From an uncultured Eubacteriales bacterium (GTDB lineage Bacteria > Bacillota > Clostridia > Christensenellales > Aristaeellaceae): 40,400 bases of DNA. Made by a program: the position numbers and the translations under genes. This document shows positions 15,471 to 37,260 of this stretch, one piece after another (within the stretch, counting starts at the first letter, position 1; every line of letters starts with the position of its first letter). A model generated the notes under the pieces. That model was given only the letters and a program-made list of their open reading frames with translations. It did not search any database and was not told the DNA's origin. Location of the stretch: NCBI GenBank assembly GCA_902765735.1, contig CACXBB010000021.1:1-40400 (forward strand). Direction: 5' to 3'.

Positions 15471-15525
15471 CCATAACGTAAAGAACTCAAAAAACAACCA
15501 CCCCTATTCTAAATTTTACCCCCCT

Positions 15526-15553
15526 TTAACTTTATTGAACGCTATGCTATAAT
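15526..15553 (+). promoter_or_regulatory. Promoter of the sugar ABC operon
   Basis: TGCTATAAT at 15545-15553 is a perfect extended -10. TTAACT at 15526-15531 is a weak -35 with a 16-base spacer. The leader is about 40 bases and shows no clear operator. Confidence 0.6.
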
Positions 15554-15601: not shown

Positions 15602-17122
15602 ATGGGCGAGAAGATCGTCTCCATGGAACATATAACGAAGGAATTTCCTGGTGTCAAGGCGCTGGACGACGTCCACTTTGAGCTGGAGGCCGGCGAGGTC
15701 ATGGCCCTGCTGGGGGAAAACGGCGCGGGCAAATCCACGCTGGTGAAGATATTGAGCGGGGTCTACACGCTGGATCACGGCAGCCTGAATATATTCGGAA
15801 AGGATTACAAGACCCTGACGCCCAACATGGCCCGGGAGGCGGGCGTGGCCATCATCCACCAGGAGCTTAACATGTGCCGCGACCTGACGGTGTGCCAGAA
15901 CATGTACCTGGGCCGGGAGATGAAGTCCGGGTTCGTGCTGAACAACGCGAAGATGGAGAAGGAGGCCCGCAAGTACCTGGACGAGCTGGGCGTGGACATC
16001 GACCCCCGCCAGGTGGTGGGGGACCTGCCGGTGTCCAAGCAGCAGATGATCGAGATCGCCAAGGCGCTGTCCATCAACGCGAAGATACTGATCATGGACG
16101 AGCCCACCTCGGCGCTGACCTCCCGCGAGATCGAGGAGCTGTTCCAGATCATCCACCGGCTGAAGAACCAGGGCTGCGGCATCGTGTACATCTCCCACCG
16201 GCTGGAGGAGCTGGCGCACATCGCGGACCGGGTGACCATCATGCGCGACGGCCGGTTCATCACCCAGGGCAATTACGCCGACTTCACCATGGACGAGATC
16301 ATCGCCAACATGGTGGGCCGCGAGATCAAGGAGAAGTTCCCGAAGGTGGTCTGCCCCAGGGGCGAAAAGGTATTCGAGGTCAAGGACCTCAACGCGGGCA
16401 GGCTGGTGCGGGACATCAGCTTCTCGCTGTACGCCGGCGAGATCGTCGGCGTGGCGGGGCTCATGGGCGCCGGGCGCACGGAGACCACCCGCGCGATATT
16501 CGGCGTCGATCCCAAGCAGAGCGGGCAGATCTTCCTGGACGGGAAGGAGATCACCATCAACGGCCCCATGGACGCCATACGCGCCGGCGTGGTGCTGGCC
16601 CCGGAGGACCGCAAGAAGGACGGCCTGTGCACCAAGCTGAGCATCCGGCAGAACATCGCGCTGCCGAACCTGGACGTCATCGGCGGCAAATCCGGCATCA
16701 TCAACAAAAAGACCGAGAACGATATGTGCGACAAGGCGGTCCGGGAGCTGGCTATCAAGACCCCGAACCTCGAGGTGGACGCCGCCACGCTCTCCGGCGG
16801 CAACCAGCAGAAGGTGGTCGTGGCGAAGTGGCTGGCCCGGAATTCCAGGGTCGTGATATTCGACGAGCCCACCCGCGGCATCGACGTCGGCGCGAAGGTG
16901 GAGATCTACCACCTGATGAACCAGCTCAAGCAGCAGGGCATCGCGGTGATGTTCGTCTCCTCCGAAATGCCGGAGGTCATGGGCGTGGCGGACCGGATCA
17001 TCGTGATGTGCGACGGCCGGATCACGGGCGAGCTCAAGGGGGGCGAGGCGACCCAGGAGGAGATCCTGAGGCTCGCCACCTCCTTTGAGAACAAAATGGC
17101 CAGGGAAGACGAGGAGGATTGA
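15602..17122 (+). CDS. Sugar ABC transporter ATPase (RbsA/MglA type)
   Basis: A 506-aa double ATP-binding cassette protein that powers monosaccharide import at the membrane. NBD1 is complete: Walker A GENGAGKST (38-46), Q-loop IIHQELN, signature region LPVSKQQMIEIAKAL, Walker B ILIMDEPTSALT, and H-loop YISHRLEEL. NBD2 has the modified P-loop GLMGAGRTE and the signature LSGGNQQK with FDEPTRGIDVGAK, exactly as in other RbsA-type proteins, where NBD2 is thought to be the weaker site. Length is normal for the family. It is the first gene of an operon with a permease (3-base gap), a binding protein and a D-lyxose isomerase, so the cargo is probably a pentose or related sugar. A degenerate paralogue is encoded at 23100-24617. 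Confidence 0.93.
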   Translation: MGEKIVSMEHITKEFPGVKALDDVHFELEAGEVMALLGENGAGKSTLVKILSGVYTLDHGSLNIFGKDYKTLTPNMAREAGVAIIHQELNMCRDLTVCQNMYLGREMKSGFVLNNAKMEKEARKYLDELGVDIDPRQVVGDLPVSKQQMIEIAKALSINAKILIMDEPTSALTSREIEELFQIIHRLKNQGCGIVYISHRLEELAHIADRVTIMRDGRFITQGNYADFTMDEIIANMVGREIKEKFPKVVCPRGEKVFEVKDLNAGRLVRDISFSLYAGEIVGVAGLMGAGRTETTRAIFGVDPKQSGQIFLDGKEITINGPMDAIRAGVVLAPEDRKKDGLCTKLSIRQNIALPNLDVIGGKSGIINKKTENDMCDKAVRELAIKTPNLEVDAATLSGGNQQKVVVAKWLARNSRVVIFDEPTRGIDVGAKVEIYHLMNQLKQQGIAVMFVSSEMPEVMGVADRIIVMCDGRITGELKGGEATQEEILRLATSFENKMAREDEED

Positions 17123-17125
17123 CCT

Positions 17126-18139
17126 ATGAAGAAAAAGGGCGCATTTGGACGGCTGCTGGCAATCAAGGGCGCGGGGTCCGTGCTGACGGCCTTTATCGGC
17201 CTCATCGTCATCTATGTGGCCTTTGGCATCATGAACCCCAAGGTGTTCTCCATCATGAACATCCAGAACCTCTTGAGGTCCATGTCCAAGTATCTGCTGA
17301 TCGGCATCGGGCAGAGCTTCGTGATGATCACCGGCAACATCGACCTGTCCATCGGCTCGGTGGTGGGCATGAGCGCCATGACCTCCGCCACGCTGATGAC
17401 CCGGGGCGTGAACCCCTTCCTGGCGATACTGCTGACCATACTCTGCGGCCTGATCGTGGGCGTGGTGAACGGCTTCCTGGTGGGCAAGTTCAAGCTGCCC
17501 CCCTTCATCGCCACGCTGGGCACCATGTTCGTGGCGCGCGGCATCGGCTACATCGTCAACGGCAACCGCAACACCGACAACATCGCCTCCGGCATCGGCA
17601 AGGAGGCCGGCGACGCCTTCCAGAACTTCTTCTACTACGGCAAGTTCGCCGGGGTGTTCAACACCTTCTGGATCGCGCTGGTGATCTTCCTGGTGTTTTT
17701 CTTCCTGCTGGCCAAGACCCGCACGGGCCGCCACATCTACGCCATCGGCTCCAATGTGGACGCGGCGCGGCTGTCGGGCGTGGACGTGATCCTCACCACC
17801 ACCAAGGCCTACCTGGTCAGCGCGTTCTGCTCCGTGGTGGTGGGCCTGATACTGGCCGCGCAGGCCGGCATGGGCAATATGGACGCCGGCAACACCTATG
17901 AGATGTACGGCGTGGCCGCGGGCGTCATCGGCGGCGTGTCGCCGCTGGGCGGCTCCGGCATACTGCTGGGCACCTTCGCCGGCGCCGGCGTGTGGCAGAT
18001 ATTGGAGAACGGCCTGAACATGGTGCACGCGCAGGTCGGCATACAGCGCATCGTCATCGGCGTGATCGTGGTGATGGCCGTGCTGCTGGATGTGGTGATG
18101 CGCACCAACGACAAGAAGGGCTTCAAGAAGAAGTCCTGA
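17126..18139 (+). CDS. Sugar ABC transporter permease (RbsC type)
   Basis: A 337-aa integral membrane protein of the RbsC/MglC/XylH group with eight to ten hydrophobic helices. Family motifs include IGIGQSFVMITGNIDLSIGSV near residue 75 (the conserved GGIDLSVG-like loop), GLIVGVVNGFLVGKFKLPPF, and ATLGTMFVARGIGY. A late cytoplasmic loop, DAARLSGVDV, should contact the ATPase. It probably works as a homodimer with the ATPase encoded 3 bases upstream. GAGGAGG inside the end of that gene serves as its ribosome site. A hairpin at 18150 separates it from the binding-protein gene. Confidence 0.92.
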   Translation: MKKKGAFGRLLAIKGAGSVLTAFIGLIVIYVAFGIMNPKVFSIMNIQNLLRSMSKYLLIGIGQSFVMITGNIDLSIGSVVGMSAMTSATLMTRGVNPFLAILLTILCGLIVGVVNGFLVGKFKLPPFIATLGTMFVARGIGYIVNGNRNTDNIASGIGKEAGDAFQNFFYYGKFAGVFNTFWIALVIFLVFFFLLAKTRTGRHIYAIGSNVDAARLSGVDVILTTTKAYLVSAFCSVVVGLILAAQAGMGNMDAGNTYEMYGVAAGVIGGVSPLGGSGILLGTFAGAGVWQILENGLNMVHAQVGIQRIVIGVIVVMAVLLDVVMRTNDKKGFKKKS

Positions 18140-18199: not shown

Positions 18200-19129
18200 A
18201 TGAAGAGCAAGGTTTTAGCCATTCTGTGCTGCGTGGCAATGCTGGCGTGCATGATTGCGATGCCCGTATTCGCCGAGACCGTCACCGCCGACAAGCCCTA
18301 CAAGATCGCCCTGATCACCATGGACTCTGTCGACCAGCATTGGGTTTCCCTGAAGGAAGGCGCCGAGGCGGAAGCGAATGCCGACGGCGTGAGCGTGGAT
18401 TTCATGTCTCCCGACGTGAAGGACGACGCCAAGCAGATCGAGTGCATCAACAACGCCGTCGCGGGCGGCTATGACGCCCTGATCGTGGCGGCCAACAGCC
18501 AGGACGCCGTCTCCGGCGCGCTGAACGAGGCCGTGCAGTCCGGCATGAAGCTGATCTACGTCGACAGCCCCGCCAACGTCGAGGCCGAGGCCACCTTCTC
18601 CACCGACAACAAGGCCGCGGGCTACACCGCCGGCGAGCAGATGCTCAAGGCGCTGGAAGAGAAGGGCATCACCGAGGGCAGCATCGGCATCGTGAACATC
18701 AACACCTCCACCAACTCCACGCTGATGCGCGAGGAGGGCTTCCGCGAGGCGCTGGACGGCAAGGGCTTCGACATCCTGGAGACCCAGTACTGCGAGGGCG
18801 ACGCCGCCAAGGCCCAGACCATCGCTGAGAACTACCTGACCGAGGGCGTCGTGGGCATCTTCGGCGCCAACGAGGGCGCGGCCACCGGCACCGGCAACGC
18901 CATCAAGGCCTCCGGCAACGACCAGGTCGTGGGCGTTGGCTTCGACAAGTCCGACACCCTGCGCGGCCTGATTGCCGACGGCTATCTGTACTGCACCATG
19001 GCTCAGAACCCCGACGTGATGGGCAAGCTGGGCGTGCAGGCGGCCATCCGCGTCCTCAACGGCGAGGACCTGGGCGGCGCTGTGACCGACACCGGCGTCA
19101 GCGTGCTGACTGCCGAGAATGTGGGCTGA
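18200..19129 (+). CDS. Sugar ABC transporter substrate-binding protein (RbsB type)
   Basis: A 309-aa type I periplasmic-binding-protein fold (Peripla_BP_4 family). After a signal peptide (cut near VFA-ET at residue 25) come the typical KIALITMDSVDQHWVSLKEGAEAEA, AGGYDALIVAANSQDA, KLIYVDSP, and GIFGANEGAATGTGNAIK segments. It captures a sugar outside the membrane and delivers it to the permease. There is no lipobox cysteine in the usual position, which is unusual for a Gram-positive binding protein; it may be retained by an uncleaved signal helix or be released. GGGAGG lies 10 bases before ATG. It sits between two mRNA hairpins. Confidence 0.9.
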   Translation: MKSKVLAILCCVAMLACMIAMPVFAETVTADKPYKIALITMDSVDQHWVSLKEGAEAEANADGVSVDFMSPDVKDDAKQIECINNAVAGGYDALIVAANSQDAVSGALNEAVQSGMKLIYVDSPANVEAEATFSTDNKAAGYTAGEQMLKALEEKGITEGSIGIVNINTSTNSTLMREEGFREALDGKGFDILETQYCEGDAAKAQTIAENYLTEGVVGIFGANEGAATGTGNAIKASGNDQVVGVGFDKSDTLRGLIADGYLYCTMAQNPDVMGKLGVQAAIRVLNGEDLGGAVTDTGVSVLTAENVG

Positions 19130-19204: not shown

Positions 19205-19897
19205 ATGAAGCGTTCCCAAATCAACGCGGCGCTCCGGGAGATGGAGCGCATGATCAACGACTATCGCTTCTCCCTGCCGAAGTTCTGCGGCTTTACGCCG
19301 GAGGAGTGGAAGACCAAGGGCCACGAGTGGGACGAGGTGCGCGACAACATGCTGGGCTGGGATATCACCGATTTCGGCCTGGGCAAGTTCGACGATGTGG
19401 GCTTCTCCCTCATCACCATCCGCAACGGCAACCAGCAGAACCGGGACAAGTATCCCAAGCCCTACGCGGAGAAGCTGCTGTACCTGAGGGACGGCCAGTA
19501 TTCGCTCAACCACTTCCACTGGTACAAGATGGAGGACATCATCAACCGCGGCGGCGGCAACCTGCTCATCCGCGTGTTCAACGCCCATGAGGACGAGACC
19601 GTGGACCGCGAAAGCGACGTCACCATCCACGTGGACGGCGAGACCCGTGTGGTGCCCGCCGGCACCCAGGTGAAGCTGGAGCCCGGCATGAGCCTGACCA
19701 TCACCCAGCGGCTCTACCACGATTTCAATGTGGAGCCCGGCACCGGCGCGGTGCTCATCGGCGAGGTCAGCCAGTGCAATGACGACAACACCGACAACCA
19801 CTTCGACCCGCCGGCCGGCCGCTTCCCCACCATCGAGGAGGATGAGCCCCCCTATCGCCTGCTGTGCAACGAGTATCCGCCGGCACCGGAAAAGTAA
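19205..19897 (+). CDS. D-lyxose isomerase (D-lyxose ketol-isomerase)
   Basis: A 230-aa cupin-type sugar isomerase that interconverts D-lyxose and D-xylulose, with known family activity on D-mannose/D-fructose. The whole family pattern is visible: MKRSQIN at the start, LGWDITDFGLGKF, YAEKLLYL, NHFHWYKMEDIINRGGGNL with metal ligands His103, His105 and Glu110, and LYHDF with His172. The C-terminal GEVSQCNDDNTDNHF and RFPTIEEDE also match. Length is typical. It is the last gene of the sugar ABC operon, after a strong hairpin, with AAGGAGG 11 bases before ATG. The context suggests that the imported sugar is D-lyxose or a close relative, with D-xylulose entering the pentose phosphate pathway; no xylulokinase is near, so a kinase from elsewhere is needed. 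Confidence 0.92.
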   Translation: MKRSQINAALREMERMINDYRFSLPKFCGFTPEEWKTKGHEWDEVRDNMLGWDITDFGLGKFDDVGFSLITIRNGNQQNRDKYPKPYAEKLLYLRDGQYSLNHFHWYKMEDIINRGGGNLLIRVFNAHEDETVDRESDVTIHVDGETRVVPAGTQVKLEPGMSLTITQRLYHDFNVEPGTGAVLIGEVSQCNDDNTDNHFDPPAGRFPTIEEDEPPYRLLCNEYPPAPEK

Positions 19898-20072: not shown

Positions 20073-20189
20073 GGGCGATGAGGGCATCGCCCCTACACCA
20101 CGCACTGAGTGTGGGACTTTTCGCGTAAGAAAGAGGCTCAGAACATCTGAAATCTCCGCCTGCGCGTAGGGGCGATGCCCTCATCGCCC
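20073..20189. repeat. Pair of facing palindromic repeats (GGGCGATG/CATCGCCC family)
   Basis: GGGCGATGAGGGC...CCCCTAC at 20073-20096 and its reverse complement at 20166-20189 face each other over 69 bases. Each copy is itself a hairpin. Further members lie at 24798-24821, 35658-35681 and 35697-35720. Confidence 0.75.
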
Positions 20190-20256
20190 GGTTCCCGTTG
20201 TTTCATTTGCGCAGATTGCCCTTGGCACAACAGCCCCGCGAATACCGCGTTCTCCC

Positions 20257-20335
20257 GTAGGGGCGGCGATGCGCCGCCCGCTGGGTACAACATGACGCAT
20301 CGTTGCCAGGCGGGCGCCCAATGGGCGCCCCTACG
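20257..20335. repeat. GTAGGGGCG palindromic repeats in the leader
   Basis: GTAGGGGCGGCGATGC...GCCCG at 20257-20280 and CGGGCGCCCAATGGGCGCCCC at 20311-20331 form two hairpins bounded by GTAGGGG and CCCCTAC. They lie in the long leader of the two-component operon. The leader 19971-20458 shows no gene. Confidence 0.65.
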
Positions 20336-20378
20336 AGATCGTTCGTTACCGTTCATCTGTAATTCCTATCTCCTAACT

Positions 20379-20427
20379 CCTCATTCCTCATTCCTCATTC
20401 CTCATTCCTCATTCCTCATTCCTCATT
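20379..20427. repeat. Seven tandem copies of CCTCATT
   Basis: An exact 7-base unit repeated seven times (49 bases), ending 31 bases before the response regulator start. Such arrays vary in copy number by slippage. A related GGAATTAGGAATGAGGAATT stretch lies at 19979-20002, in the opposite sense. Confidence 0.85.
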
Positions 20428-20458
20428 CAACACGTGACCCCACAGGATGGAGCAAACC

Positions 20459-22045
20459 ATGATTAGAGTAGTGATCGCGGACGACGAGGAGCGCATCTGT
20501 CGGCTGATCATCGCCCTGGGCGAATGGGAGCGCCTGGGCGTGGAGGTGGCCGGCGTCGCCATGAACGGCCTGGAGGCGATGGCGCTGGTGAAGTCAACCG
20601 CCGCGGACATGCTGATCACCGACATCCGCATGCCCGGGTGCAGCGGGCTGGAGCTGATCGAGCAGGTCAGGAAGCAGTCGCCGAAGATCAAGATCATCAT
20701 CATCAGCGGCTACGCCAACTTCGAGTACGCCCAGCGGGCGCTGAAGGACGGCGTCAACGACTATCTGCTCAAGCCGATCAACAAGGTGGCGCTCAACGAG
20801 GCCGTGGAGCGCCTGGCGGGCATGATCCGGTCCGAGCGGCAGAACCGCGCCGCCATGGACGCCTCGGTGGAGCGCATGGAGTCCATCCACCGCCTGCGGA
20901 GCGCGCTGATCTCCGATCTCCTGTCGGTGAACCCGCCCCGGGCGGACCGGGCCGTGCTGGAGGAGAAGTACCACTTCGCCTGCGGCGCGGGGGTGTTCCA
21001 GACGCTGGTGCTCAAGCTGGACATCCCGCCCTCGCTGGAGGACGGCGTGATCATCACCGCCGTGCGGGAGAAGGCGCAGGCGCAGCTGCAGGAAGCGCTC
21101 GGGCAGTTCTGCGTCGATGCGGTGTGCCTGCCCCAGGAGACCTTTCTGTACGCGGTGTGCTGCTGCGAAGCGGAGGCGCTCAGGCCCCTGCGCAACACCC
21201 TGCGGGAGCTGCTGGGCCGCATGCAGGCGTGGAGCAATCTGTACGGGGACGTCAGCTTCTCGATCGCCCTGGGGCCGTGCTGCGACAGCCCCCGCGACCT
21301 GGTGGAATCGCTGGCGGAGGCGCGGCGCGTCGTGGCGGAGCGACTGATCGACGGCACCGGCAAGGTGCTGGAAAAGACCGTCTCCGGCCAGACGCCCCAG
21401 GTGAAGCGGCTGTCGGACGACTGCTTCCGCCAGTTAAACCGCGCCATCGACGAGTCCGACGCCGCCGGCGTCGCCCAGGCCATCGCGAAGCTCAGGCAGA
21501 GCGTGGGGGAGTGCCAGGGCGTCCACGGGTGGGAGATGCTGGAGATCGTGTACGAGGCCGGCAACCTGATGTTCACCCGGCTGGACCTCCCGGACAAGCG
21601 GGAGAAGCGGGACGCCTTCTACCGCGCCTGCGATTCCAGCAGGTCGGCAGAGGCGCTGTTCGACGTGTTGTCGGAGACCTCCCGCATGTGCATGGAGCGC
21701 ATGTGCGAGCTGGAGCGCGAGAACGTGACGCGCCCCGTGCGCCAGGCCTGCGAGTACATCCGGGCGCACTACGACGAGCAGATCACCCTGGAGGAGGTCA
21801 GCATGCACGTGGGTCTCAACCCGGCCTACCTGAGCGTGCTGTTCAAGAAGGAGATGGACGAGGGCTTCGCCCACTATCTGATGAGCGTCCGCATCGAGGA
21901 GGCCCGGGAGCTGCTTCGGGAGAGCAACGCCCCGGTGGCGGAGATTTGCCGCCGGGTGGGCTACAACGACATCAAGCACTTCACCCGCATCTTTGAAAAG
22001 AGCGTGGGCGTGAAGCCGGGAATCTACCGGAAGCTCTACGGTTGA
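20459..22045 (+). CDS. Response regulator with AraC-type DNA-binding domain (YesN type)
   Basis: A 528-aa cytoplasmic transcription factor. The receiver domain (1-120) has the acidic pocket IADDEE (Asp8, Asp9), phospho-acceptor Asp55 in MLITDIRMPG, the switch Ser in IIIISGYANFEYA, and Lys in YLLKP. A middle region of about 300 residues is unassigned. The C-terminal 100 residues are an AraC HTH pair: ITLEEVSMHVGLNPAYLSVLF, then APVAEICRRVGYNDIKHFTRIF and VGVKPGIYRKLYG. Such regulators act with YesM-type kinases on carbohydrate genes. ATG 20459 has GGAG at 6 bases; ATG 20447 lies too close to its AGG. The kinase gene begins 8 bases after the stop. The regulated promoter is unknown; the sugar operon upstream is the obvious candidate. 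Confidence 0.9.
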   Translation: MIRVVIADDEERICRLIIALGEWERLGVEVAGVAMNGLEAMALVKSTAADMLITDIRMPGCSGLELIEQVRKQSPKIKIIIISGYANFEYAQRALKDGVNDYLLKPINKVALNEAVERLAGMIRSERQNRAAMDASVERMESIHRLRSALISDLLSVNPPRADRAVLEEKYHFACGAGVFQTLVLKLDIPPSLEDGVIITAVREKAQAQLQEALGQFCVDAVCLPQETFLYAVCCCEAEALRPLRNTLRELLGRMQAWSNLYGDVSFSIALGPCCDSPRDLVESLAEARRVVAERLIDGTGKVLEKTVSGQTPQVKRLSDDCFRQLNRAIDESDAAGVAQAIAKLRQSVGECQGVHGWEMLEIVYEAGNLMFTRLDLPDKREKRDAFYRACDSSRSAEALFDVLSETSRMCMERMCELERENVTRPVRQACEYIRAHYDEQITLEEVSMHVGLNPAYLSVLFKKEMDEGFAHYLMSVRIEEARELLRESNAPVAEICRRVGYNDIKHFTRIFEKSVGVKPGIYRKLYG

Positions 22046-22053
22046 GGCATGCC

Positions 22054-23103
22054 ATGAAGGATGACAAGCACTATCTGTCGCGCCGTGTCGCCGCGTTCTG
22101 CCTGATCGCGCCCGCCTGGGCGGTGCTGCTGGCGCTGTTCGCCTATCTCACGGGGCGCTTTTCCGGGCGCTTCGGCTTTTGGGGCTGGGCGCTGGTGATC
22201 GTCACCGGCGCGAGCCTGCCCGCGCTGGCCTACTACTGGATCTACCGGCCCTACTGCCGCTGCCGGGACACCGTTCGCCGCTTCATCGAGGGCTACATCT
22301 CGGTGCACGAGCTGCGGGAGCTGACCTCCGCGGTGTCCCCGGAGACCGACCGGTTCATTGCCGTGATCGACGGCGCCATGGCCAGCATGCGCAACCTGGA
22401 CCTGTCCAAGAGGCAGGCCCAGTATCGCGCGCTGCAAAACCAGATCAACCCCCACTTTCTGTACAACACCCTGGAGGGCATCCGCAGCGAGGCGCTGATC
22501 GCCGGGCTGGACAGCCTCGCGGACATGACCGAAGCCCTGGCCACCTTCTTCCGCTACACCATCAGCAAGGTGGAGAACCTGGTGACGGTGGAGGAGGAGC
22601 TGGAGAACTGCCGCACCTACTTCAAGATCCAGCAGTACCGCTTCGGCAGCCGCCTGCGGATGCGCGTGCACATCGATCCCGAGGACGAGCGGGAGATACT
22701 GCGCTGCCTGATCCCTAAGCTGACCCTCCAGCCCATACTGGAAAACAGCATCATCCACGGCATCGAGCTCAAGCTGGGGGAGGGGCACATCGACATAGAG
22801 ATCAGCCGCAGTCAGCGCCGGCTGCTCATCAGCGTCAGGGATGACGGCGTCGGCATGGGCCGGGAGGCGCTTCGGCGGTTGAACGGGCGGCTGGGCTCCA
22901 AGGAGGAGGAGCTTCGGGACATGACCCACGAGGCGCAGGGCGGCATCGCCCTGACCAATGTGAACAACCGCATCCACCTGATCTTCGGCGAGGAATACGG
23001 CATGCACGTGTACTCGGTGGAGGGCGAGGAGACCACGGTGGAGCTCACCATCCCCGCGATGACGGAGGAAGGGCGCGCGGCGGGAGGCGAAGGCGGGGCA
23101 TGA
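22054..23103 (+). CDS. Sensor histidine kinase (YesM/LytS-type) lacking an external sensor domain
   Basis: A 349-aa membrane kinase. Two transmembrane helices (about 12-33 and 44-64) are separated by only about 10 residues, so almost nothing faces outside; YesM-type kinases normally have 200 or more extracellular residues here. A short linker leads to the His_kinase domain, with phospho-acceptor His134 in LQNQINPHFLYNTLEG, then the ATPase domain with N-box LQPILENSIIHGI, DDGVGMG and GGIALTNVNNRI. The kinase is therefore catalytically complete but has no obvious ligand-binding part. GAGG is 6 bases before ATG 22054. Its stop overlaps the next gene's start (ATGA). The likeliest input is a partner membrane or membrane-associated protein, such as a transporter. 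Confidence 0.88.
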   Translation: MKDDKHYLSRRVAAFCLIAPAWAVLLALFAYLTGRFSGRFGFWGWALVIVTGASLPALAYYWIYRPYCRCRDTVRRFIEGYISVHELRELTSAVSPETDRFIAVIDGAMASMRNLDLSKRQAQYRALQNQINPHFLYNTLEGIRSEALIAGLDSLADMTEALATFFRYTISKVENLVTVEEELENCRTYFKIQQYRFGSRLRMRVHIDPEDEREILRCLIPKLTLQPILENSIIHGIELKLGEGHIDIEISRSQRRLLISVRDDGVGMGREALRRLNGRLGSKEEELRDMTHEAQGGIALTNVNNRIHLIFGEEYGMHVYSVEGEETTVELTIPAMTEEGRAAGGEGGA

Positions 23104-24617
23104 AACAGGAGGTACTCCGATTGGAGCGCGTCACCTATCGCGCCGACGGCATCAACATACTGGACAATTTCTCCTTCCACATCGCCCGGGGGGAGATACT
23201 GGGCCTTCAACCCCTGGACAACGACGGCCTGGACGCGCTGATGGACATCATCCAGAACAACCCGCCGCTGTACTTCGGCTTCGTGTACTACATGGAGAAC
23301 TGCGTCAACACCTGGCGTGGCATCCACCGCACCAAGAACCGGGTGACCGTCATCGGCAGCGAGAGCTCGCTGGTCAAGGGCATGGACGTGGTCACCAACA
23401 TATTCGTGCTGCGCCCGGGCTTTCGGCAGGAGATGATCCACCGCTCGCTGCTGTCCCGCCAGCTTAAACCCTTTCTGGAGGACATCGGCGTCAGCATCGA
23501 CCCCGCCACGCCGGTGGATCACCTGTCCGCCTTCGAGCGCATGGTGGTGGAGATCCTGCGGGCGGTGGTGGCGGGGCACCATCTGATCATACTGCGGGAG
23601 ATCGGCTCCGTGGTCAGCGAAAACGACCTGGAGCAGCTGCACGGCATCATGCGCCACTACGCCGCCCGGGGGTTCTCGTTCCTCTACATCAGCCCCCACT
23701 ACGAGGAGATCCGGCAGGTCTGCACCCGCATGGTGCTCATGCAGGGCGCGGCCATACAGATGAGCCGCAGCGGGCGGGACATCCGGCAGGGCATCAGCGT
23801 CATGTATTACAGGGAGTATTACGACCACGTCACCCGGCGCATCCGCCGCCGGGAATGGATGGACCGCCGGAAAGCGCTTCTGGAGGCAAAAAACATCAGC
23901 GGCGAATACCTCGATCACTTTCGGTTCTCGCTTTATCAGGGGGAATGCCTGATCATCCAGAACCTGGACATGGCCATCCATCAGGAGCTGACCGCCATAC
24001 TGAGCGGCGACGACACAAAAAAACGCCCCGAGCTGGTGCTCGGCGGCAGGCAGATACGGGGGTTTGGGTCCCGGGAGGTGGCCTACGTGCGGGAGGATCC
24101 CGCCCGGACGATGATCTTCGAGGACATGAGCGCGCTGGAGAACATCTGCATCGCGCTGGACGGTCGGGTGCCCTCCGTGTGGCGGCGGCAGGGCGTCCAG
24201 AGGGCCGTCCGGGAGGAGTACGCGCGGCTGTTCGGGGATGATCTCATCGACAGGGAGGTCGGCGCGCTCACCCAGGCCGAGCGGATCAGGCTGGTCTATG
24301 CCCGCATCATGTTCCAGCATCCCCAGGTCGTGTTCCTCGAACAGCCCTACAAGAACGCCGACGTCAAGCTGCGCTTCCAGATTTACAGCCTGCAGGAGAT
24401 GCTTTTGAACCGGGGGTTGTCCATCGTCATACTCGCCGTCAACATCGCCGACGGGCTCACCCTGGCGGACCGGCTGGTGCGCGTGGGGCTCAATAACGGC
24501 CGCATCGAGACCCGGGAGTACCTGCGGCGGGACTTCGCCTCCCTGCCCATCAATATCCCCTGGGTGGACGTGTTCAGCGACATCCGAAAGGACCAGGCGG
24601 CGGAGGCGCGGGGGTAG
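23100..24617 (+). CDS. RbsA-like double ABC protein without ATP-binding motifs (pseudo-ATPase)
   Basis: A 505-aa protein with the length and layout of RbsA-type sugar ATPases but with the nucleotide-binding residues lost in both halves. Half 1: the P-loop position reads GLQPLDNDGLDA (36-47), without GxxxxGKS/T; the signature position is HLSAFERMVVEIL (141-153); Walker B is LIILREIG with Asp replaced by Arg; the H-loop His is lost (YISPHYEE). Half 2: GECLIIQNLDMAIHQ at the P-loop (281-295), LTQAERIRLVYAR at the signature (390-402), VVFLEQPY for LDEPT (410-417). The framework (ISGEY, EDMSALENICIAL, GLTLADRLVRVGLNNG) remains. The frame is intact over its full length and is start-stop coupled (ATGA) to the kinase gene, so this looks like selected loss of ATP binding and not decay. 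It probably works as a scaffold or signal adaptor. Confidence 0.8.
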   Translation: MKQEVLRLERVTYRADGINILDNFSFHIARGEILGLQPLDNDGLDALMDIIQNNPPLYFGFVYYMENCVNTWRGIHRTKNRVTVIGSESSLVKGMDVVTNIFVLRPGFRQEMIHRSLLSRQLKPFLEDIGVSIDPATPVDHLSAFERMVVEILRAVVAGHHLIILREIGSVVSENDLEQLHGIMRHYAARGFSFLYISPHYEEIRQVCTRMVLMQGAAIQMSRSGRDIRQGISVMYYREYYDHVTRRIRRREWMDRRKALLEAKNISGEYLDHFRFSLYQGECLIIQNLDMAIHQELTAILSGDDTKKRPELVLGGRQIRGFGSREVAYVREDPARTMIFEDMSALENICIALDGRVPSVWRRQGVQRAVREEYARLFGDDLIDREVGALTQAERIRLVYARIMFQHPQVVFLEQPYKNADVKLRFQIYSLQEMLLNRGLSIVILAVNIADGLTLADRLVRVGLNNGRIETREYLRRDFASLPINIPWVDVFSDIRKDQAAEARG

Positions 24618-24634
24618 ACAGATTTATGAAACAT

Positions 24635-24822
24635 GCGCAGGGGCGCCGATGCGGCGCCCGCCCAATCAGAATCCATGGTTTTCTGTCGGGCGGGCGGCGC
24701 ATCGCCGCCCCTACGCACAACGGGATTATTCCATCCGTAGGGACGCCATTCATGGCGTCCGCGGGCGGCATGAATGCCGCCCCTACGTCAGGGTTCCGGG
24801 CGATGAGGGCATCGCCCCTACT
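24635..24822. repeat. Cluster of four or more palindromic GTAGGGGCG-type repeats
   Basis: Successive hairpin units fill nearly the whole gap between the pseudo-ATPase and the permease: GGGGCGCCGATGCGGCGCCCG, GGGCGGCGCATCGCCGCCCC, GTAGGGACGCCATTCATGGC..., GGGCGGCATGAATGCCGCCCC and GGGCGATGAGGGCATCGCCCC. The last supplies the TAG stop codon of the convergent permease gene (24818-24820). Confidence 0.75.
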
Positions 24823-35657: not shown

Positions 35658-35720
35658 GGGCGATCAGGGGATCGCCCCTACGGATCGCACGCAGGCGTAG
35701 GAGCGATGCCCTCATCGCCC
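35658..35720. repeat. Two facing GGGCGAT palindromic repeats
   Basis: GGGCGATCAGGGGATCGCCC begins at 35658 and ends in CTAC near 35681. An inverted copy, GTAGGAGCGATGCCC..., runs 35697-35720. They match the pair at 20073-20189 but are 15 bases apart. Confidence 0.7.
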
Positions 35721-37061: not shown

Positions 37062-37097
37062 CGCGTTGCCTCCCGGTGGTGCAGAGTGCAGAGTGCC

Positions 37098-37260
37098 GTA
37101 GGGACGCCATTCATGGCGTCCGCGAATACCGCTGGCCTCCGTAGGGGCGCCGATGCGGCGTCCGCGAATACCGCTGGCCTCCGTAGGGGCGCCGATGCGG
37201 CGCCCGCCCAATTCGCATCCATGGTTCCGCTCGGGCGGGCGGCGCATCGCCGCCCCTACG
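37098..37260. repeat. GTAGGGGCG palindromic repeat cluster with a 42-base tandem
   Basis: Units of GTAGGGGCGCCGATGCGGCG type. A 42-base segment, GCGTCCGCGAATACCGCTGG..., is repeated at 37116 and 37158, then a partial third unit. A facing GGGCGGCGCATCGCCGCCCC follows. This fills the leader of the HMA-like gene (start 37061). Confidence 0.75.

Follow-up and report, generated by a model that had tools for sequence, protein, structure and literature searches.

A catalytically dead RbsA paralogue as the proposed input subunit of a sensorless YesM-type two-component system in Bacillota

In the window analysed here, a stretch of 40,400 nucleotides from an uncultured Eubacteriales bacterium (GenBank assembly GCA_902765735.1, contig CACXBB010000021.1), we identified a triad of head-to-tail genes (20459–24617) that encode an AraC-type response regulator, a YesM-type histidine kinase, and a 505-residue RbsA-like double ATP-binding cassette (ABC) protein without a competent ATP site, referred to below as pseudo-RbsA. 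Based on sequence comparisons, we propose, with a probability of about 0.6, that this RbsA paralogue, catalytically dead, provides the signal input to a two-component system governing a ribose-type (CUT2) sugar importer, in which it would replace the missing sensor, dock on the permease and/or the kinase, and report the occupancy of the importer. An input role is suggested by the operon coupling of a sensorless kinase to a non-hydrolysing copy of an importer motor. The proposal is supported by loss of the ATPase motifs in 26 of 26 family members, compared with 22 of 22 intact importer RbsAs, by adjacency to the kinase in 27 of 28 genomes, by the restriction of the kinase subfamily to pseudo-RbsA genomes (14 of 14), and by the lack of a sensor in 27 of 27 kinases. 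Co-occurrence with the importer permease, purifying selection, a conserved 12-mer after Q-loop 1, repeats at the importer promoter, and a rough series among more distant systems point in the same direction.

The three genes lie on the forward strand, as do all window genes and promoter features described below. The regulator gene (20459–22045; Response_reg, GGDEF_2, and AraC helix-turn-helix [HTH] matches in Pfam) is separated by 8 bases from that of the kinase (22054–23103, with its ATG at 22054), and the kinase stop codon overlaps the start of the pseudo-RbsA gene (23100–24617) at 23100 as ATGA. This confirmed both the coordinates and the coupling reported in the initial annotation of this DNA. 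The kinase carries His_kinase and HATPase_c matches in Pfam, with an intact His box and ATPase domain, and together with the AraC-type receiver-HTH regulator it has the composition of a YesM/YesN two-component system. The triad starts 2.3 kb beyond the permease gene of the importer and 0.56 kb beyond an isomerase gene. Immediately 5' of the regulator gene we noted a tandem ATTCCTC repeat of 9.6 copies (20362–20428), which is shorter in one relative (G003) and was not seen in two others (G001 and G005).

Pseudo-RbsA is homologous to the RbsA-type importer ATPases over nearly its full length as a double ABC protein. The four best NCBIfam models, representing xylose, arabinose, and ribose ATPases, span residues 1–471 of its 505 at 114–145 bits, compared with cut-offs of 689–745, and its ABC_tran score in Pfam is only 35 bits versus 175 bits for the intact RbsA encoded at 15602. 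The protein shares 20–24% identity with the RbsA-like proteins of its own genome. We aligned 26 pseudo-RbsAs, without the contig-split protein of G004 and the cut one of G487. None of the 26 has Walker A1, Walker B1, the LSGGNQQ signature, Walker A2, or Walker B2, whereas 22 of 22 importer RbsAs taken from these loci carry all five motifs. Ordinary RbsA itself has one degenerate ATP site, as described in the accessible part of its source (PMC11466899), and both this source and our alignment place it without the Walker A lysine of half 2 and without a canonical first signature. The telling losses are therefore those of the competent site, composed of Walker A1 and B1 and the LSGGQ of half 2, and this site is found in none of the 26 pseudo-RbsAs. 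The Walker B1 aspartate, the H-loop 1 histidine, and the signature-2 Gly-Gly are lost in all 26, and 21 have also lost the Walker A1 Ser/Thr. The residues at these lost positions differ between members. Family-specific sequence stands in place of the motifs, such as the QPFxxADMYLR that many members have at Walker B2 and the D-loop. The D-loop aspartate of half 2 is retained in all 26. The motif replacement described in the initial annotation extends to all five motifs across the family, and none of the 26 homologues has the intact Walker motifs that the annotation had named as speaking against its interpretation; its statement that both Walker B Asp-Glu pairs are gone was slightly too strong, because Walker B of half 1 in the window reads RE, with the aspartate lost and the glutamate kept. 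We caution against annotating genes of this type as sugar-importer ATPases.

The best-conserved 12-mer of the family (consensus VADNIFVLRRGF, residues 97–108) is located directly after Q-loop 1. The helical segment at this position is a permease-contact zone in ABC importers. Conservation of Walker A1, Walker A2, Q-loop 1, and signature 2 has dropped to approximately the protein average in pseudo-RbsAs, according to a comparison of 17 of the 26 pseudo-RbsAs with 14 of the 22 RbsAs from which near-identical ones were removed.

The kinases of the window type, here called type I, lack the large extracellular sensor that is usual for, if not strictly defining of, YesM kinases. In all 27 that were measured there is no extracellular sensor, and the part in front of the His box has 120–157 residues (296 in the fused protein of G039). 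Hydropathy typically indicates a pair of neighbouring membrane helices joined by a short loop, as in the window; a few loci show one or up to three segments above threshold. Type I kinases comprise ~350 residues versus mostly near 600 for other YesM kinases. For the window kinase and two other type I kinases, Pfam gave matches to kinase domains and nothing else, whereas L113, a 645-residue YesM kinase of the ordinary kind from the same genome, gave additional HAMP and, below the cut-off, dCache matches. A structure model of the kinase (5 rows) had a mean pLDDT of 41.8, with the first 70 residues at fair confidence and forming two long helices. In each of 18 pseudo-RbsA genomes we found exactly one kinase at E<1e-100 (open frames of 337–398 residues; 543 in G039); the next-best kinase scored 1.7e-78, and most others had open frames near 600. 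At this threshold, the kinase subfamily is present in 14 of 391 class genomes, all of which contain pseudo-RbsA: 13 are exactly the genomes of the class sample identified by the pseudo-RbsA profile search, and in the remaining one, G487, a contig end cuts pseudo-RbsA off after its first 168 residues.

In total, pseudo-RbsA was identified in 28 distinct genomes with 12 family codes, all within Bacillota. An eight-row profile (E<=1e-75) retrieved it from 4 of 396 order, 13 of 391 class, and 7 of 398 phylum genomes, with the window genome counted in each, whereas the single window protein (E<=1e-40) retrieved it from 9 of 150 relatives; G487 was added from the kinase search. In these genome searches, only the top few candidates from an initial pass over each genome were scored. 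Full-length identity to the window protein ranges from 95% down to 28%. Relative to three congeners, pseudo-RbsA has near-full-length dN/dS values of 0.11, 0.17, and 0.28 (0.02 for an 80-codon fragment from a fourth); values for the kinase are 0.10–0.29, and those for rbsA, the permease, and the binding protein 0.02–0.15. The range of 0.11–0.28 indicates purifying selection, and the frame is open in nearly every relative, with a stop near its end in G005. Judged by sequence, pseudo-RbsA is an old, conserved family and no decaying gene; the random decay in relatives that the initial annotation had considered was not seen.

The recurrence of kinase-regulator-pseudo-ABC triads in other genomes, which had been suggested as a check, is borne out by the adjacency of kinase and pseudo-RbsA in 27 of the 28 genomes, and their start-stop coupling is shared by the window and several relatives. 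In G039 (L048:67–1632), the contig starts with a fusion of a receiver and the sensorless kinase, and an AraC part was not seen. An importer RbsA stands beside the triad in 23 of 28 genomes; in two of these, G555 and G706, the contig ends within it. The five genomes without an adjoining importer RbsA are G789 and those with short or cut contigs (G039, G094, G487, and G560); in G094, an rbsA-permease pair is found on another contig that ends directly after the permease.

In the window, this importer comprises the intact ATPase RbsA with five of five motifs (15602–17122), an RbsC-like permease of the BPD_transp_2 family as the proposed docking partner (17126–18139), and an RbsB-like sugar-binding protein (18200–19129). 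We identified an orthologue of the permease (E<=1e-120, at least 72% identity) in 8 of 100 relatives, seven of which are positive for pseudo-RbsA; in the eighth, G047, the contig ends inside the regulator gene. G039 has pseudo-RbsA on a 3.5-kb contig and gave no permease match. The co-occurrence corresponds to a one-sided Fisher p = 4e-9, with related genomes treated as independent.

The region upstream of rbsA contains a tandem CCCCT repeat, whose units recur every ~20–22 bp (approximately two helical turns), followed by a promoter-like TATAAT. The repeat (15501–15530) lies upstream of and overlaps the rbsA promoter and is a candidate site for the regulator. Read from the sequence, the TATAAT (15548–15553), 17 bp after TTTAAC (15525–15530), is the likely importer promoter. 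The repeat pattern matched 14 of 24 rbsA upstream regions, several of them from near relatives. It had been spotted by eye on 14 of the 24 sequences; on the ten uninspected loci (L072, L073, L074, L075, L080, L081, L083, L092, L093, and L094) it matched 5 of 10, including two near-relative pairs. Among controls, the pattern was found in 0.4% of mononucleotide shuffles and 1.5% of random stretches; of 26 regions upstream of the regulator gene, one matched, in low-complexity sequence.

Some further features of the importer loci were noted. A D-lyxose/D-mannose isomerase gene, a hint at the sugar, occurs near the triad in four lineages (window 19205–19897, L049, L071, and L083), with identities of 69% and 73% in two lineages and 43% in G570. 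The frames of the importer binding protein at L080:3565–5361 and L081:14260–15423 contain two tandem binding-protein matches, and the binding-protein gene of G243 (L071:5575–6755) consists of two overlapping frames, which reflects a frameshift or an assembly error.

According to the mechanism that we propose, pseudo-RbsA would take the place of RbsA on the permease dimer. The resulting complex of binding protein, permease, and pseudo-RbsA would not pump, yet would still move when the sugar-loaded binding protein docks. This movement would be relayed via pseudo-RbsA to the kinase, which would phosphorylate the regulator, and the regulator would then bind the tandem repeats and switch on the importer. 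The dead subunit would thus stand in for the extracellular sensor of ordinary YesM kinases. Predicted B. subtilis Rbs complexes contain one RbsA per two permeases (PMC11466899, accessible part); with one double ATPase per two permeases, a dead copy could displace the motor on some permeases and turn these into receptors. The signal adaptor suggested in the initial annotation is strengthened by the sensorless kinase, the importer co-occurrence, and the promoter repeats, whereas physical contact with permease or kinase, an inability to bind ATP, and the sensing of flux are inferred. If correct, this mechanism would provide an example of a bacterial transporter motor turned sensor, explain where a group of short YesM-type kinases that lack a sensor obtain their signal, and offer a clean test system, with a dead motor, a live motor, and one permease, for how importers report occupancy to kinases.

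Several observations weigh against this proposal. The repeat pattern was missed in 10 of the 24 rbsA upstream regions. In G789, pseudo-RbsA (L076:9115–10569) is found on a separate contig from the regulator, kinase, and importer; L094 (6370–12806) of this genome holds regulator, kinase, RbsA, permease, and binding protein together, and the L076 copy is the only pseudo-RbsA detected. The frame of this displaced gene is open, the family motifs are kept, and the preceding gene is, presumably, ileS, to judge from its first residues. With respect to docking, the type I segment after Q-loop 2 has drifted from RbsA though it is conserved within the family, and the contact segments of pseudo-RbsA are not consistently closer to the RbsA of their own importer than to others (mixed signs). 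For these reasons we can only infer docking on the permease, and direct binding to the kinase is the main rival. A structure model of pseudo-RbsA (4 rows; mean pLDDT 36.5) was too poor to define docking surfaces. In addition, the H-loop 1, Walker B, and signature 1 stretches are conserved above the family average with new residues, so that a remodelled cleft may matter, and 8 of the 26 members retain a lysine at the Walker A1 position while all 26 have an acidic residue (E or D) at the Walker B1 glutamate, which would allow weak nucleotide binding for some.

Such a cleft is central to the alternative in which pseudo-RbsA binds the kinase only and senses a cytoplasmic sugar phosphate or nucleotide there, with no contact to the permease. 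In favour of this, no other sensor is present in the kinase, the new residues at Walker B and H-loop 1 are conserved, the gene of G789 is kept away from the importer, and the triad evolves as a unit and faster than the importer (dN ~0.13–0.16 for regulator, kinase, and pseudo-RbsA versus 0.01–0.06 for rbsA, permease, and binding protein in two 79% pairs). We nevertheless consider this alternative unlikely in view of the close co-occurrence with one importer and the top conservation in the presumed permease-contact segment. A little less likely again is a role in transport itself, with pseudo-RbsA as a non-hydrolysing brake or assembly factor on the permease and the operon shared for co-expression; as a paralogue of the importer ATPase with the importer rbsA nearby in most genomes it could serve in this way, whereas its link to the sensorless kinase itself, its start-stop coupling to the kinase gene, and its evolution at the pace of the kinase are not what this role predicts.

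The retained acidic residue and the occasional Walker A1 lysine could also be those of an unusual working ATPase with non-canonical motifs. This is improbable, as the Walker B1 aspartate, H-loop 1 histidine, and signature-2 Gly-Gly are uniformly gone, the Walker A1 Ser/Thr is mostly gone, and the replacing residues vary between members. Least credible of all, to the point of being negligible, is a decaying duplicate of the adjacent rbsA: the homology to RbsA and the lost catalysis would fit, whereas the open frames, purifying selection, distribution over 12 family codes, and a tree that sets pseudo-RbsA apart from 25 ordinary RbsAs rather than beside the adjacent one do not.

Beyond type I, we identified six more distant kinases, each with an additional RbsA-like protein encoded next to it and a different importer nearby. 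In L095 and L099 the RbsA-like gene comes after the kinase gene, in L100, L101, and L102 it stands ahead of the regulator gene, and in L098 it is on the opposite strand. The proteins of L095 (9390–10814) and L099 (3486–4895) constitute a second class with 36% identity, in which Walker A is partly eroded and most other motifs are gone, and their genes adjoin a different RbsA-permease importer. A search with the single L095 protein (E<=1e-30) retrieved only itself from 150 relatives of G041; its 36% relative was found in G739. Among the other proteins, that of L098 is degenerate, those of L101 and L100 keep much of Walker A1 with other motifs lost, and that of L102 is nearly intact. The predicted membrane helices of the kinases are separated by ~260 residues in L103, a long kinase without an RbsA-like neighbour, 133 in L102, 104 in L100, 15 in L101, and 12 in L098, and the L095 and L099 kinases have no room for such a stretch. 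These sequences are suggestive of a rough series in which greater erosion of the ATPase goes with a shorter external part of the kinase. Erosion gives no clear order between L100 and L101, and the series is only suggestive given the long branches of L098, L100, and L101, the odd composition of eight rows, and the six examples outside type I.

In the kinase tree, which contains 18 type I kinases (most genera once) and omits L099 and several ordinary kinases with a His box off the search pattern, type I forms one clade (100/99). This clade groups with five of the six more distant kinases, the long kinases L103 and L111, and the long-branch L121, with support of 94/92 that narrowly misses the program's star. 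A complete importer of its own is encoded alongside L111. The RbsA tree places 25 of 25 ordinary RbsAs on one side (97/89) and 21 of 21 kinase-linked proteins on the other, with L102 nearest the border. A recent copying of the neighbouring rbsA was ruled out by this tree, in which the adjacent RbsA is not the direct ancestor of pseudo-RbsA. The split and the series fit one origin with stepwise conversion. We tentatively suggest, at slightly less than even odds, that the kinase-linked RbsA-like lineage arose once from a transporter ATPase and was converted stepwise from pump motor to input of YesM kinases, with the kinases losing their extracellular sensors in parallel, and that it now serves several sugar importers across Bacillota; the receptor would be an importer with a dead motor.

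The window is located on contig 21 of a 2.92-Mb genome that is 97% complete. Its closest named relatives are metagenome-assembled genomes, namely a Clostridia bacterium from goat ileum and the "uncultured Clostridiales" RUG series (79–96% identity, larger pieces). REP-like CGTAGGGGCG repeats occur on both strands, mostly in intergenic regions (20088–20335, 24636–24822, 35673–35705, 37097–37260, and others), with 22 matches in the window at up to one mismatch versus 4.4 expected.

Among the results listed by our searches of an open-access library, which covers neither subscription papers nor preprints, we found no description of a dead RbsA-like protein in a two-component operon; searches aimed at hexose transport in Clostridium phytofermentans and the accessible parts of PMC8303734, PMC9601137, and PMC9045158 gave nothing on this system either. 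The part of PMC7386598 available to us deals with a binding protein and the two-component system of an amino-acid transport locus. The system shares individual traits with several known ones. Near-full-length homology and two fused ATPase domains relate pseudo-RbsA to RbsA and other CUT2 ATPases, from which it differs in that the remaining competent site is also destroyed and replaced by family-specific sequence. The state of a nutrient importer is likewise read by a histidine kinase in PstSCAB-PhoU-PhoR; this system is not known to have a dedicated pseudo-ATPase, and its PhoU is unrelated to ABC proteins. XylFII-LytS-YesN and CuaDSR are clostridial sugar two-component systems that control importer genes and have a third part of ABC-importer origin, an extracellular binding protein that binds a large external sensor domain. 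In CuaDSR, an additional binding protein is combined with a long histidine kinase, CuaS, of 627 residues (PMC10384115, accessible part). The window system resembles these three-component systems in the origin of its third part and differs in that this part is a relative of the cytoplasmic ATPase and the kinase has no external domain. One binding-protein gene is present beside the window triad, and G041 has a second, 27% one downstream.

The Bce modules (BceAB-BceS-BceR) provide a parallel in possible working. According to the accessible part of PMC10314905, their kinase lacks a dedicated sensing domain, relies on the ABC transporter for its signal, and controls the transporter genes, as the window-type kinase, likewise without a sensor, may do. 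The Bce signal is described in the same source as the ATP-driven conformational cycling of BceAB, which is said to have no membrane transport capability, and BceAB has a large outer loop (PMC3023708, accessible part). The comparison with Bce made in the initial annotation is apt in this respect and does not extend to kinship, as the importer of the window is of the CUT2 sugar type, with a BPD_transp_2 permease and an RbsA-like ATPase. It also differs in its YesM-type kinase and in the extra, dead double ATPase, and there is a reasonable chance that the pseudo-RbsA system represents a separate class.

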